From a virus: a stretch of DNA of 36,245 nt. The stretch spans positions 1 through 36,245 of IMG/VR virus record IMGVR_UViG_3300037346_000223, one strand, 5' to 3'. The translations under genes and the position numbers were made by a program. Below the pieces are notes generated by a model, which made no database searches, was not told the origin of the DNA, and saw only the letters and a program-made list of their open reading frames with translations. This document shows, piece after piece, positions 21,530 to 32,319 of the stretch. The number at the start of each line of letters is the position of its first letter. Within the stretch, counting starts at the first letter, position 1.

Positions 21530-22462
21530 ATGAAATCAGCACTATCAGATCCAAGTTTATCGTTGGCTGCAAAAGGGCTATACGCATTTTTTTTAGAAAT
21601 TGGACGGGTTGCATCTGTAGATGAAATGTCTGCTGCACACCCTGAAAGTAAATACTCAATGACTAAAGCAATGAAAGAACTTAAAGACGGTCATTACATT
21701 AAAGCTGTTAGGTTTCAACAAAACGCTGGACAATGGAACACATTGTTAAAATTTACAGATCCTAGTTTGAATATATATGTGCCGGAAGCCGACACTCGAA
21801 ATACGAGTCTTCTGTCCATAAGTAGTAATAAGACTAATAGCTATATGTCTAGTAACTTAGGTATAGATACAGTTACTAACGTAACTGTATCTATAGGGGC
21901 TGCGCCCCTTAAGGAGGAACAAATGGGTTGGAACCTAGATGGTAACGAAGACAAGCCTGTAAGCAAATCTATTGTCCGACGCCTTGCCATGCAACAAGAG
22001 ATTGACTCGGCTCCAGGCACAGTCGGCAAAATTGACGACCGACAATCGCGTCTTAATAAGAAATACAAAAAAACAAACTTTGAGGCAGTGCCCGCAAGTA
22101 TGCTTCGTAACGAACGACCAGAAGAAGAATGGGGTACTGCAGACCTTGTTGCAGAGTTTTATCATCTAACCCGTAATAACTCAGATGCACCAGCACAAAT
22201 TAACGGCAAGTACTTAATCACTTGGATTAACAAGATGGTTGGAGCTGGCGTTACTAGGTTTGCTATATTAAAGGCAATGCGAATGTTTTTTGAGGATCTT
22301 CGCAATCTTCACAACAGCGGTATTGGAAAACCTATCTATCAACGATTTATGGCTTACTATCCAAGTGTTCACGGTTTAGTAAGCCGAGTTGCAGAGAAAA
22401 CAATTTTAGACGATGATATGAAAACGCATCAAGAAAAGATGCTTCGACTATTGGAGAGCTAA
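21530..22462 (+). CDS. putative replication initiator, winged-helix and DnaD-like
   Basis: The 310-residue protein has a strong aaggagg site upstream. The N-terminal 75 residues, SDPSLSLAAKGLYAFFLEIGRVASVDEMSAAHPESKYSMTKAMKELKDGHYIKAVRFQ, form a winged helix of the type found in phage initiators: S-L-x-A-K-G-L-Y-x-x-L, then a recognition helix before a wing. Residues 90-190 are low-complexity and basic. The C-terminal 120 residues are helical (ADLVAEFYHLTRNN..., LITWINKMVGAGVTRFAILKAMRMFFEDL). It is followed by a one-base overlap with a DnaC-like gene, a frequent initiator-loader pair. It would bind the phage origin; no iteron-like repeats were noticed in its neighbourhood. Confidence 0.65.
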   Translation: MKSALSDPSLSLAAKGLYAFFLEIGRVASVDEMSAAHPESKYSMTKAMKELKDGHYIKAVRFQQNAGQWNTLLKFTDPSLNIYVPEADTRNTSLLSISSNKTNSYMSSNLGIDTVTNVTVSIGAAPLKEEQMGWNLDGNEDKPVSKSIVRRLAMQQEIDSAPGTVGKIDDRQSRLNKKYKKTNFEAVPASMLRNERPEEEWGTADLVAEFYHLTRNNSDAPAQINGKYLITWINKMVGAGVTRFAILKAMRMFFEDLRNLHNSGIGKPIYQRFMAYYPSVHGLVSRVAEKTILDDDMKTHQEKMLRLLES

Positions 22463-26824: not shown

Positions 26825-28389
26825 TGACCTTTACCGGAACGTTATTACCTTATCAACCAGAGGCTGTAGACGCTATGTGCGACCGTGGTCAGATGTTGGT
26901 TGCCTACGATCTTGGTTTAGGTAAAACTGTTCTTACTATTGCAGCAATAGAACGTCTTATGGACGAACAAAAAATTCAAGAGCCGGGTATTGTTATCTGC
27001 CTATCTAGCCTTAAGTATCAGTGGGCAGATCAGATAAGGAAGTTTACAGATGGATCTTCAACACCTTTGGTCATTGACGGAACGCCAAAACAAAGAGCTC
27101 AGCAATACGCAGAAGCGTTCGACTGGGGTCATTCGTTGGTGGATTATGTCATTATTAACTACGAGCAAGTTGTTAACGACTGGGAGTATGTACGACAACT
27201 CCCTACGGGATTCATTGTCTGCGACGAAGCAACCGCCATCAAAAGTTTTAAATCTCAACGATCAAAACACGTAAAAAAACTTAAGAGCGATTATAGGTTT
27301 GCTTTAACTGGCACACCGGTAGAAAACGGTAAGCCAGAAGAGCTTTACTCAATTATGCAGTTTGTTGATAAAAAACTTTTAGGAAGGTACGACCTGTTTG
27401 ATCAAACTTTTATTGTTCGTAATAAGTTTGGTGGAGTGGAGCGTTATAGAAATTTATCTCTTTTAAACTCAACGTTGTCTGAGGCAACAGTACGTAAACG
27501 TCAATCAGATCCAGATGTAGCCCCTTACTTGCCGGAGACAATCTTTGCAACTCCAATCTTGATCTCTTTTGATAGCAGTAGCCGTAAACTTTATAAGCAC
27601 ATTTCCTCTGAAATTTTAATTGATTTAGATGAAGCTATGGATTCTTACGGAACTAGTTTTGATATTTTTAGTCATTACGGACAAGGGGGTCAAACGTTTG
27701 AAGGTGCTGACGCGTTACGTGGGCGCATTATGTCTAAGCTAACTGCATTACGTATGTTGTGCGATCACCCAGAACTTTTAGAGTATTCAGCTAATTCTTC
27801 TAGGTATGTAAAAGAACTTAAAGACTCAGGAAAATTAGATACAATAGTCAAGTCACCTAAGCTAATGGCTCTTAAAGAATACGTAAATAACTTTCTATCT
27901 GAGTATGAAGGTAACAAGTTAGTTATTTTTACTAGCTATGTTCACATGGTCGATATCATCCGTTTAGAGTTAATTAATAACTGGGCAAGTGTTCCGTATA
28001 CAGGAGAGCTAAATGCAAAAGAAAAAGAAGAGAACAAAGTTAAGTTTCAAACCCAAGCGGAGATTCGTGTCCTTGTCAGCTCTGACGCTGGTGGTTATGG
28101 CGTGGATCTACCTCAAGCTAACCTTCTTATTAATTATGATCTCCCGTGGAACGCAGGACTCGCACTTCAACGTAATGGACGAATCAGAAGAGCATCCAGC
28201 ACCTGGCCCTCAATCGTGATCCAAGACTTCTTAATGGAGGGGTCAATTGAAGAGCGTCAATATGCCATGCTTGAGCAGAAGATGGCTATTGCCAACGCTG
28301 TAGTAGACGGCGAAGGCATAGATGACAAGGGCGGAGTGGCTTTAAATGCAGGTTCACTTAGGGCTTTTTTAGAAAACATCACGGTTTAG
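26824..28389 (+). CDS. SNF2/DEAD-type helicase-like ATPase
   Basis: A GTG start sits in a TAGTG junction. The 521-residue protein has all SF2/SNF2 motifs: LPYQPEAVDAM (Q-like), VAYDLGLGKTV with Lys34 (motif I), IVICLSSLKYQW (Ia), VCDEATAIK with D133-E134 (motif II), and FALTGTPVENG (motif III). The second lobe has LVIFTSYVHMVDII (IV), then VLVSSDAGGYGVDLPQANLLINYDLPWN (V) and QRNGRIRRA (VI). SNF2-like proteins in phages help remodel recombination or replication intermediates. There is no nuclease domain and no SWIM finger in this chain; a SWIM protein is encoded separately at 23133. Confidence 0.93.
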   Translation: MTFTGTLLPYQPEAVDAMCDRGQMLVAYDLGLGKTVLTIAAIERLMDEQKIQEPGIVICLSSLKYQWADQIRKFTDGSSTPLVIDGTPKQRAQQYAEAFDWGHSLVDYVIINYEQVVNDWEYVRQLPTGFIVCDEATAIKSFKSQRSKHVKKLKSDYRFALTGTPVENGKPEELYSIMQFVDKKLLGRYDLFDQTFIVRNKFGGVERYRNLSLLNSTLSEATVRKRQSDPDVAPYLPETIFATPILISFDSSSRKLYKHISSEILIDLDEAMDSYGTSFDIFSHYGQGGQTFEGADALRGRIMSKLTALRMLCDHPELLEYSANSSRYVKELKDSGKLDTIVKSPKLMALKEYVNNFLSEYEGNKLVIFTSYVHMVDIIRLELINNWASVPYTGELNAKEKEENKVKFQTQAEIRVLVSSDAGGYGVDLPQANLLINYDLPWNAGLALQRNGRIRRASSTWPSIVIQDFLMEGSIEERQYAMLEQKMAIANAVVDGEGIDDKGGVALNAGSLRAFLENITV

Positions 28390-29042: not shown

Positions 29043-29510
29043 ATGAGCGACGAAATTGACAAACTCTTTGGAAGCCTGGATGATTACTACCCAGGGTCAA
29101 AGCGCAAACGTCGTGCTCCAGATCCAAATGTAAAACCTCGTAAAGTTTCTACACCAGAAAGTTGGGATGTTGATCCACAAGTAAAAACATTACCAAACGG
29201 AAAGGTGATAGAATTGTTTAGTGCCGGTTCGCTAGGATTGGCATTAAACAGACCAGTAGTTACTTTGAGGCTTTGGGAACGAAAAGGGTACATACCACGT
29301 GCTCCTTATCGTTTAAAGTCAATGATGGTAAAGGGTGTAAAGAAGCCCGGATGGCGGATGTACAGCAGAACTATCGTAGAAGCAACTATTGAGAGCTTTC
29401 AATCTAGAGGACTTCTTGAAGCCCCAAGGATTGATTGGAATCGACATCACGATCTATCAATTGAATTGATGGAAAAATGGATTAAGATTCATTCTCAAGA
29501 AACAATTTAA
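29043..29510 (+). CDS. MerR-like helix-turn-helix DNA-binding protein
   Basis: The 155-residue protein follows aaggaa. The first 50 residues are polar and basic (SKRKRRAPDPNVKPRKV). Residues 58-90, ELFSAGSLGLALNRPVVTLRLWERKGYIPRAPYR, follow the winged MerR/excisionase pattern: helix-turn-helix, then R-x-WE-R-x-G-x-I/L-P. GWRMYSRTIVEATIESFQSRGLL then matches the wing and third helix (R-x-Y-x-x). It has no metal-binding C-terminus, so it is closer to phage excisionase/regulator types than to metal sensors. It lies just before the SSB-like gene and might regulate it. Confidence 0.75.
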   Translation: MSDEIDKLFGSLDDYYPGSKRKRRAPDPNVKPRKVSTPESWDVDPQVKTLPNGKVIELFSAGSLGLALNRPVVTLRLWERKGYIPRAPYRLKSMMVKGVKKPGWRMYSRTIVEATIESFQSRGLLEAPRIDWNRHHDLSIELMEKWIKIHSQETI

Positions 29511-29539
29511 TATGACTATCAACCAATGATCCACTGACC

Positions 29540-29548
29540 GAAAGGAGA
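29540..29548 (+). promoter_or_regulatory. ribosome binding site of the SSB-like gene, complementary to a downstream hairpin loop
   Basis: GAAAGGAGA is a strong Shine-Dalgarno eight bases before the ATG at 29557. All nine bases are the reverse complement of 30297-30305, which sits in the loop of the hairpin after the same gene. The unusual length of this match makes it more than a plain ribosome site. Confidence 0.7.
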
Positions 29549-29556
29549 TACCTTAA

Positions 29557-30258
29557 ATGGGTATCCGAATTGAAAACAATGCAACACCTAACGTCGACTC
29601 TTACGTAGTCGAGACACCAACAGCAGATGTTCTTGAAGAAATCTTTGCTGAAGAAGACGAGACAGAAACACCGGATCGTTCTTCCGTAATTCAAACTGGT
29701 TGGGCAGCAGCTAAAAAAGCTGTAGCAAAGTCCAACAAAACATTCGCAACTGATTTCCGTTTTGACGAAGATGTCCAACTAATTAAATTCATTGGCAACG
29801 AGCCAATGAGCTTTATGCAGCACTGGGTAAACCGTCCTGGCAAGAAATCATTTATTAGCATTGGCGATGGTGACCCGCTAATTGCCGTAGGCAGTAAAGC
29901 AGATCAGAAGTTTGCATTTACTGTTCTTAATCTTTCTGACGAAGATCCACAACTTCAATTAATGATTGTTGGAGTTCGTTTATGTGGTCAGCTTGAAAAG
30001 CTTGACTCAAATTCAAAAACCGGCCCACTTCATCGTCCAGATCTTTACTGGGCAGTAAGCAAGTCCGGTACCGGAACAAAGACCGCGTACTCCATTCAAC
30101 CTGTAAAGGAACGCGATCTTGCTGAGGACTGGGGTATTGATCCTGTCAGCGCAGCCGAGCTAATTAAAACAATGAAGCCACTTGGACCAGATGCACTTCA
30201 TACATCTACCAAGGCTGAACTTGCTGAAATTGCTCGTGAAATTGCTGCAGCCAACTAA
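29557..30258 (+). CDS. putative single-stranded DNA-binding protein
   Basis: The 233-residue protein has an acidic N-terminus (DVLEEIFAEEDETETPD). A beta-rich middle follows: ATDFRFDEDVQLIKFIGNEPMSFMQHWVNRPGKKSFISIGDGDP, KFAFTVLNLSDEDPQLQLMIVGVRLCGQLEKL, then YSIQPVKERDLAEDWGI. This arrangement (an OB-like core with a conserved W, G-K-K-S/R-F, F-x-V-L-N) recalls phage SSBs in actinophages and T7-like SSBs. An Asp/Glu-rich segment is at the N-end rather than the usual acidic C-tail. The gene lies directly before the DNA polymerase, separated by a strong hairpin, and fits replication. The family call is moderate. Confidence 0.7.
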   Translation: MGIRIENNATPNVDSYVVETPTADVLEEIFAEEDETETPDRSSVIQTGWAAAKKAVAKSNKTFATDFRFDEDVQLIKFIGNEPMSFMQHWVNRPGKKSFISIGDGDPLIAVGSKADQKFAFTVLNLSDEDPQLQLMIVGVRLCGQLEKLDSNSKTGPLHRPDLYWAVSKSGTGTKTAYSIQPVKERDLAEDWGIDPVSAAELIKTMKPLGPDALHTSTKAELAEIAREIAAAN

Positions 30259-30272
30259 CCTCAACTAATCGT

Positions 30273-30322
30273 GCTGAGGGCTCATTTTCTTAAGTGTCTC
30301 CTTTCTTTAATGAGCCCTCAGC
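30273..30322 (+). promoter_or_regulatory. 14-bp perfect hairpin with anti-Shine-Dalgarno-like loop between ssb-like and polymerase genes
   Basis: gctgagggctcatt (30273-30286) is the exact reverse complement of 30309-30322, around a 22-base loop. The stem extends by a G-U and G-C pair to 30271 and 30324. The loop includes tctcctttc (30297-30305), complementary to the ssb-like ribosome site at 29540-29548 and equal in nine bases (ctcctttct) to the 3' end of actinobacterial 16S rRNA as I remember it. No T-run follows, so it is not a classic terminator. It could be an attenuator, a processing signal, or translational control. It fills the 84-base gap 30259-30342. Confidence 0.75.
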
Positions 30323-30342
30323 GCACCTAATCCGGGAGCGCA

Positions 30343-32319
30343 ATGAATATAGTTACAACTCAAGAACAGCTTGATGAATTAGTTGCTGCGTATGATGCAG
30401 TAGACGTTTTTGTTTACGACGTAGAAACCGTTGGATCGCATCGCGGAGATCCGCGTCAAAATATAATTACTTGGATTGCTTTAGCCACTCATGGTCGAGT
30501 AGACGTTATTCCTATGGGACATCCAAATGGTGAGTACTTGCGTACTGAGCACCCTCTTCTTCCTTCTGCTCAAGCCCGTGTTATTAAAGGCATGGCACTT
30601 CGTGATTCTGACTACAGCCAAGACGAAAAGAAAGCTGTACGTATCTTTGGTCCAGCCCCAGAGCAGTTAACCGCTGGGGAGGTTTTTAAAGCCCTTAAGC
30701 CTTTACTTAAGAGTTCTAAGGTAAAGGTTGGGCATAACCTAAAGTTTGATTTACAAAGCGTTAGCAAATACATTGATGGTCTTCCAGCCCAACCCTATGC
30801 GTGTACGTTAAACGCATCTTTCATCTTAAATAATCAAAATAGAAATAGCCTAGGGCTTGATGACTGCTTAAAACGAGAGTTTGGCTACGAGATGGTTAAG
30901 GGCGTAGGTAAAGAAGTAGAAAAGTACAGTTTTGAAGAGGTGGCTATTTACGCGGGTTTAGACGCAGAATGGACTTGGAAGCTTTGGCTTACTTTATCTG
31001 CTCGTTTAGATAAAGACGGATTGCGGGGTATCTTTAACTTAGAAATGGACGTGCTTGAGGTAATTTGTCGTATGGAGTTACGTGGTGCAGACATTGATGT
31101 TACGGAACTATCAAAGCTTAAGACTGATTTAGAAGTGCAGTTAGAGACTACCAAGGCATCTATCTATCGTTTTGCAGGTAAAGCATTTAACATTAATAGT
31201 GTTCAAGAAAAACAAAAACTTCTTTACTCGCTTAAGAAAGACGGTGGGCGTGGGCTTAAACCTAAGCTTCTTACTCCAGCAGGACAAAAGCGTGCTGAGC
31301 AAGGGCTTCCTGGTTCTGTAGCAGACTACTCTGTATCTGAGCCTGCCTTACAAGTACTTGCTGGTAAAGATCTTTTAGTAGATTCTCTTATTGCTTACTC
31401 AGATTTAAACAAGTTATTAACTACTTACGTAATTCCATATTTAGGTGGAGACATTACTCGTACGTTAGCCGGTAAGTCTAAGATTGTTGCAAAGAAAAGC
31501 TTGTTGCTTAAGGGCCGAATTCACACAGACTTTGTTCAGTATGGTGCGGAGACCGGCAGATTCTCTAGTCGTAATCCTAATTTGCAGAATGTGCCGGCTC
31601 CGCATACTGCTAATGGTAAAGCAATTCGTAACTTATTTGTTGCTCCAGAAGGACATTCTTTAGTGGTTGCAGATTACTCACAGATTGAACCTCGTGTAAT
31701 TGCATCGTTTAGCCAAGACAGAATTTTATGCGGTGCTTACATGAACGGTGAAGATATTTACACAACTATTGGCGATACAATGGGTGTTGATAGAAAAGCT
31801 GGAAAAGTGTTAGTGTTGTCCCTTGCATACGGCGTTGGTCCTGATAAAATTGCCGATTCTATTGGATGTTCTCTTGCAGAAGCAAGGGATCTTCTTGATG
31901 ACTTTACAAAGAAGTTTCCTGCGGTAGGTAGATACAAAAAACAAGTTATTGCTGAAAGTCGTAGGCAAGCTCCAATACCGTACGCTAGCACCCTTTTAAA
32001 ACGTCGTAGGTATATTCCAGATCTTAGGGCTAATGAGGTATGGAAACGCTCCAGAGCAGAGCGTCAGGCCTTTAATACGGTCATTCAAGGGTCGGCAGCT
32101 GATCTAATTAAACTTGCTATGATTAGGGCTAACAAGATGATCCCTGCGGAAGCCGCTCTAATTCTTACGGTACACGATGAATTAGTAACTGTTACTCCTA
32201 CAGAGATTGCAGATCAAACTGCGGAAGCAATTCGTTTTGCTATGGAAGGTATTAACGCTTTATCAGTGCCAATGTTGGCAGATGTAAAAATTGTAAAACG
32301 GTGGGGAGAAGCTAAATGA
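30343..32319 (+). CDS. family A DNA polymerase with 3'-5' exonuclease
   Basis: The 658-residue protein begins after the hairpin. The exonuclease is DEDDy: VYDVETVG with D26 and E28, HNLKFD with D136, and YAGLD with Y203 and D207. The polymerase has RFSSRNPNLQN, motif A VVADYSQIEPRVIA with D444 (the usual Leu after Glu is Pro), motif B RKAGKVLVLSLAYG with K488 and Y496, and motif C TVHDE with H611, D612 and E613. The presence of Tyr at 496 agrees with ordinary ddNTP-type selectivity. It lacks the 5'-nuclease of bacterial PolA, as expected of phage replicases. The next gene overlaps its stop by four bases. Confidence 0.96.
   Translation: MNIVTTQEQLDELVAAYDAVDVFVYDVETVGSHRGDPRQNIITWIALATHGRVDVIPMGHPNGEYLRTEHPLLPSAQARVIKGMALRDSDYSQDEKKAVRIFGPAPEQLTAGEVFKALKPLLKSSKVKVGHNLKFDLQSVSKYIDGLPAQPYACTLNASFILNNQNRNSLGLDDCLKREFGYEMVKGVGKEVEKYSFEEVAIYAGLDAEWTWKLWLTLSARLDKDGLRGIFNLEMDVLEVICRMELRGADIDVTELSKLKTDLEVQLETTKASIYRFAGKAFNINSVQEKQKLLYSLKKDGGRGLKPKLLTPAGQKRAEQGLPGSVADYSVSEPALQVLAGKDLLVDSLIAYSDLNKLLTTYVIPYLGGDITRTLAGKSKIVAKKSLLLKGRIHTDFVQYGAETGRFSSRNPNLQNVPAPHTANGKAIRNLFVAPEGHSLVVADYSQIEPRVIASFSQDRILCGAYMNGEDIYTTIGDTMGVDRKAGKVLVLSLAYGVGPDKIADSIGCSLAEARDLLDDFTKKFPAVGRYKKQVIAESRRQAPIPYASTLLKRRRYIPDLRANEVWKRSRAERQAFNTVIQGSAADLIKLAMIRANKMIPAEAALILTVHDELVTVTPTEIADQTAEAIRFAMEGINALSVPMLADVKIVKRWGEAK

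Follow-up and report, generated by a model that had tools for sequence, protein, structure and literature searches.

Hairpins and pseudoknots in mRNA leaders can act in cis through a segment complementary to the Shine–Dalgarno (SD) sequence, which competes with the ribosome. Similar complementarity is found in small RNAs (sRNAs). The alpha-r14 or 'cuckoo' sRNAs of alpha-proteobacteria, such as NfeR1 and CcsR, present an ultraconserved, unpaired anti-SD motif on stems that vary greatly; each CcsR RNA follows a protein gene, from whose transcript it is processed, and NfeR1 pairs to block ribosome sites (PMC10746234, PMC10253847). In Gram-positive bacteria, RNAIII and the Rsa RNAs use UCCC loops to pair with the SDs of their target mRNAs (PMC3861533). 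Finally, the gene 43 and gene 32 operators of phage T4 are RNA structures upstream of the ribosome sites of two replication genes, those for the polymerase and SSB, respectively (PMC3014915).

Here, we describe a strongly supported structured RNA, without a match in Rfam, that carries the anti-SD tail of the ribosome in the middle of a phage replication operon. It is a hairpin found in phages of freshwater actinobacteria between an ssb-like gene and a DNA polymerase gene (polA), and the phage message probably covers gene start sites with the loop, keeping translation low. If true, this would be a simple, protein-free setting of the SSB:polymerase ratio, and possibly a phage RNA acting on translation generally.

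The element shares features with each of the known systems. Like the cuckoo sRNAs, it has an invariant anti-SD loop on variable stems. Unlike them (their motif is CCUCCUCCC, and NfeR1 has three hairpins), it is a single hairpin with ACCUCCUUUCU and the core CUCCUUUCU, and it sits on an actinophage mRNA, in the ssb-polA gap, without a clear promoter of its own. It resembles the UCCC-loop sRNAs in its presumed action, a pyrimidine-rich hairpin loop set against SDs, but its loop lacks UCCC, sits inside an operon and is an exact copy of the 16S rRNA tail. The phage hairpin shares with the T4 operators its place ahead of a replication gene's ribosome site; it lies just 5' of the polymerase SD. The T4 operators, in contrast, are bound by protein, and the gp43 loop is UAAC with no anti-SD, where the phage element has the core CUCCUUUCU. 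The gp43 polymerase also belongs to a different family from the family A enzymes. Unlike the cis-acting leader structures, the phage loop matches the 16S tail in full and not a single local SD, and it hardly varies while the stems differ widely. In action, the closest systems are the cuckoo sRNAs and the Gram-positive UCCC-loop sRNAs, and the phage element is a member of neither.

Gene context and hosts

The window, that is, the whole 36,245-nucleotide stretch of DNA analysed, is a 36 kb virus record with contractile-tail genes, an SNF2-type helicase, a weakly MerR-like gene, the ssb-like gene, a family A polymerase and RecA. The ssb-like gene (29557..30258, plus strand; 233 amino acids) has homologues annotated as SSB in the Streptomyces phages GiJojo and LuckySocke. 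Its protein has no match in Pfam or PHROG, and its AlphaFold model is poor (pLDDT 59). Downstream, polA (30343..32319, plus strand) encodes, by domain and profile matches, a family A DNA polymerase with a 3'-5' exonuclease domain. BLASTn against cultured phages returned no match, and the bacterial genomes searched for homologues contained none. Cultured homologues of the ssb-like gene occur in Streptomyces phages, for example GiJojo, LuckySocke and BRock. One to three WhiB-like proteins each are encoded by 12/12 large relatives tested (G001, G002, G003, G007, G008, G010, G011, G015, G016 and G018-G020). These proteins, together with the synteny with Streptomyces phages, indicate that the hosts are actinobacteria.

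A conserved RNA hairpin between ssb and polA

In the window, the hairpin consists of a 5' arm (30271..30286), a 22-nt loop (30287..30308) and a 3' arm (30309..30324), all on the plus strand. A sequence-only reading of this DNA had reported a 14-bp perfect stem at 30273-30286/30309-30322. The stem is indeed there, and its base is extended by a T.G and a G-C pair (30271-30272/30323-30324). Folding gives a minimum free energy z of -4.3, and an equally good fold was seen in 0/200 shuffles. The same reading had remarked on the lack of a T-run. No U-tract follows the hairpin on its 3' side and no terminator-like site was called there, which excludes an intrinsic terminator (a GC stem followed by a U-tract).

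Protein scans of IMG/VR found the ssb-like gene on well over 100 contigs, and each of the 75 distinct gaps gathered between ssb and polA contains a strong hairpin. In dozens of uncultivated actinophages this gap holds an element with the anti-SD loop (53 distinct elements). We assessed covariation in an alignment of 42 such elements. Both sides have changed with pairing kept in 12 of the 13 aligned stem pairs, which support both arms of the window's hairpin, and 95.6% of the alignment cells across the 13 pairs are paired. The covariation score is 0.665, against 0.269 +/- 0.018 in shuffles and <=0.19 in slid controls, and RNAalifold recovers the identical 13 pairs. Wobbles in the stem are strongly biased (27 G.T vs 2 A.C). 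Since a function in DNA or on the minus strand would lack such a bias, the hairpin belongs to the mRNA strand; a role as an SD for the opposite strand or as a cruciform is excluded by the same counts. A short minus-strand open reading frame after the loop is not conserved in three sequences compared by eye. The ssb-polA gap element is therefore a functional RNA on the mRNA strand, a hairpin that is conserved and covaries.

A search with a covariance model and the 9-mer found one copy of the element per genome. This excludes a repeated element, and most further matches to CTCCTTTCT look like SD complements of genes on the other strand. A loop-plus-stem pattern search of all viral contigs returned 53 stretches. 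Nine matches came from beyond the contigs already collected, four of them following the ssb-like gene (L292, L293, L307, L309). Spread to other contexts was considered and rejected: L288, L315 and the three matches in bacterial genomes (L327-L329) correspond to neither this ssb nor this polymerase. All structured copies found with the family's stem sit in the ssb-polA gap. Covariance models from Rfam gave no match at E<=1 across 29400-30500, and no phage anti-SD hairpin of this kind was found in the literature searched, where the element is apparently undescribed.

The loop and the 16S rRNA tail

The constant part of the element is the loop core CUCCUUUCU, mostly ACCUCCUUUCU. The 53 distinct elements have 28 distinct loops, all with [C/T]TCCTTT; CTCCTTTCT is found in 47 and ACCTCCTTTCT in 33. 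Their loops contain CUCCU and lack UCCC. UCCUU, present in nearly all of them, occupies invariant alignment columns. Column identity is 95-100% in the core CTCCTTTCT, a mean of 71% in the stem and 60% at the next base past the core.

The free 3' tail of 16S rRNA is identical in actinobacteria and B. subtilis. The B. subtilis tail has been published as GAUCACCUCCUUUCU (PMC6107228). In the window, the loop stretch TCTCCTTTC that the earlier reading had placed at 30297-30305 is present, the loop includes CUCCUUUC, and the core CTCCTTTCT (30298-30306) equals the last 9 nt of the tail, taking the B. subtilis sequence. The resemblance to the 16S tail remarked on in that reading thus amounts to identity of the core with the single-stranded tail. 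The window's clade differs from the tail on the 5' side of the loop (UGUCUCC for ACCUCC). Because identity falls to 60% one base past the terminus, the conserved block ends where the 16S rRNA ends. For the freshwater clade, the best explanation of the loop would be a decoy anti-SD, a copy of the 16S rRNA 3' tail.

History of the stem and the loop

A tree built from 40 ssb-like proteins and labelled by the presence of the anti-SD loop needs four changes of the label. It suggests that the loop was gained about once, where a clade with strong support (100/99) begins, and lost about three times (L074, L144, L189). These three close relatives keep the ssb-polA pair and a 14-18 bp stem, with short unrelated loops (GTTT, TTCTCGT, CCTATC) in place of the anti-SD loop, and in two of them the polymerase SD is altered too (GGGGGAG, GAGGGG). 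Distant relatives, Streptomyces phages included, have a hairpin in the gap without the anti-SD loop. In the phages GiJojo, BRock, pSt2308 and LuckySocke (L275-L278), a very strong hairpin with an unrelated loop follows ssb; in GiJojo and pSt2308 it is separated from the polymerase gene by one or two small annotated genes. By this distribution, the hairpin is older than the anti-SD loop.

Candidate partners of the loop

The sequence-only reading had proposed that the loop is the exact complement of the SD belonging to the ssb gene that it follows, GAAAGGAGA at 29540-29548. This match is confirmed as the sole other exact copy in the window, and the pairing is longer than the nine nt noted: 12 consecutive pairs, one of them G-U, join the SD and following bases (GAAAGGAGATAC, 29540..29551, plus strand) to 30294-30305. 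Among 200,000 22-mers drawn at random from the window, as few as 85 match the ssb leader over 9 nt, and nearly all of these should overlap the loop, so the complementarity is non-random. Its reason is the resemblance of the loop to the 16S tail.

That the loop contacts the ssb SD at long range and shuts off ssb translation appears unlikely. In its favour are the 12 bp in the window, exact complementarity of 8-9 nt in 21/49 relatives, and the UGUCUCC of the window's clade, which happens to lengthen the pairing with the leader GGAGAUA. Across 49 distinct relatives, however, the longest match between loop and ssb leader ranges from 3 to 9 nt. It is <=5 nt in 11/49 with the core unchanged (3 in L064; 5 in L059, L080 and L153), so the complementarity was kept along with the stem only in part. 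Variants of the ssb SD within the window's clade (GAAAGGAATATC, GAGAGGAATATC) have no answering changes in the loop. Own leader/loop pairs do slightly better than permuted ones (P about 0.02, confounded by relatedness). The ssb SD is the strongest of 42 genes in the window, but in six near-complete relatives it ranks 17, 3, 10, 5, 42 and 83 of about 130 (crude gene calls); it is somewhat above average in strength, for which high expression would account too. Of the kissing model, the functional hairpin and the anti-SD loop are supported, and the dedication of the loop to its own ssb SD is not, in the form proposed. The alternative raised with it, masking of other SD sites by the loop, is the better fit.

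The nearest such site is the polymerase SD (GGGAG, 30334..30338, plus strand), which could pair with the loop CUCCU as a pseudoknot; in the window, 10 nt separate the end of the stem from its GGAG. The loop is complementary to this downstream SD, as an H-type pseudoknot over it requires. In most relatives the SD is AGGAG, giving 5 nt with the loop CUCCU in 34/49 and 6-7 nt in 6 more. The linker from stem to polymerase SD is 7-15 nt (one 24) in anti-SD elements vs 18-24 nt in distant relatives that lack the loop; spanning a 14-16 bp stem with it would be tight, though possible. The polymerase SD is of average strength (about rank 50 of 130). Own pairs of loop and polymerase SD do only slightly better than permuted ones (P about 0.006, confounded by relatedness), and covariation is uninformative here because both partners are near-invariant. 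Counting against the pairing, L074 has the same AGGAG without an anti-SD loop. Moreover, the polymerase SD uses only CUCCU of a 9-11 nt block, so it cannot alone account for the conserved UUUCU. One loop could possibly serve both genes, as the ssb register (GAAAGG/CCUUUC) and the polymerase register (AGGAG/CUCCU) would together cover the conserved core.

We give about an even chance to the reading that the element is an mRNA mimic of the anti-SD, set on an older intercistronic hairpin, that pairs with SDs and damps translation, that of polA before others. Damping by pairing with SDs is the most economical reading because the derived loop copies the anti-SD. In this lineage of actinophages, an intercistronic hairpin lies between ssb and polA; the ancestral stem probably keeps a highly expressed ssb apart from a polymerase gene of low expression. 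About 12 nt lie between the stop codon of ssb and the stem, which a terminating ribosome would therefore not need to open. The loop may pair with SDs and reduce translation initiation. The polA SD would be at the highest local concentration, its AGGAG forming an H-type pseudoknot with the loop CUCCU, and the polymerase would then be made sparingly and the upstream ssb in large amounts. The loop might also reach the ssb SD through the GAAAGG register, and the SDs of other messages if the hairpin persists as a 3' fragment of the ssb mRNA.

Alternative explanations

The main rival takes this last step as the function. A stable hairpin, released during infection, would accumulate as a 3' ssb mRNA fragment and, in the manner of the cuckoo sRNAs, compete in trans with ribosomes for strong SDs of phage early genes or host genes, blocking them and shifting translation between phage phases or off host messages. 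We regard this as possible, with a clearly smaller chance than damping of polA first. Its weight comes from conservation of the tail in full, beyond the part that polA needs: the block spans the entire free 16S tail, ends with it and exceeds the need of either cis SD. In addition, the element follows ssb, which is expected to be highly expressed, and in each genome near-ideal AGAAAGGAGG SDs precede a few genes, among which are several small ones on the opposite strand. On the other hand, no separate promoter or terminator for the hairpin was seen, and its constant place before polA suggests a role in cis.

The remaining explanations each fit a part of the element. A translational operator bound by the polymerase or SSB, with the protein reading the loop sequence, would suit a fixed loop on a variable stem immediately before the polymerase ribosome site, and T4 gp43 binds a hairpin before its own ribosome site (PMC3014915). 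It explains the place of the hairpin and not its identity with the 16S tail, and L074, L144 and L189 have lost the loop yet keep the gene pair; we consider it improbable. That the stem alone matters, as an mRNA 3' stabiliser, a factor-dependent attenuator or a processing site between ssb and polA, agrees with the strong hairpin in the same gap of distant relatives and Streptomyces phages that lack the anti-SD loop. Such a role likely fits the ancestral stem, but it leaves the near-invariant 9-nt loop core of 53 elements unexplained and is very unlikely as an account of the loop. Least probable of all is that host nucleases acting on the anti-SD are decoyed by the loop or cleave it. MazF-mt3, one such nuclease, recognizes UCCUU (U^CCUU) and cuts the 16S anti-SD (PMC5408214), and nearly all loops have this pentamer, but a single copy on a single mRNA makes a poor decoy and the conservation extends past the pentamer.

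Two minor observations concern other sites. A few small genes, several of them transcribed in the opposite direction to ssb-polA, have near-ideal SDs (AGAAAGGAG or GAAAGGAGG) and are candidate targets of the loop in trans; they lie at G007:C1:95662, near 48920 and 46165 in G011, near 98945 in G002 and near 26875 in G016. Elsewhere in the window, a perfect inverted repeat of 15 bp around a 4-nt loop (TATAGATACAGTTAC/GTAACTGTATCTATA) occupies 21862-21895, within the open reading frame 21530-22462.
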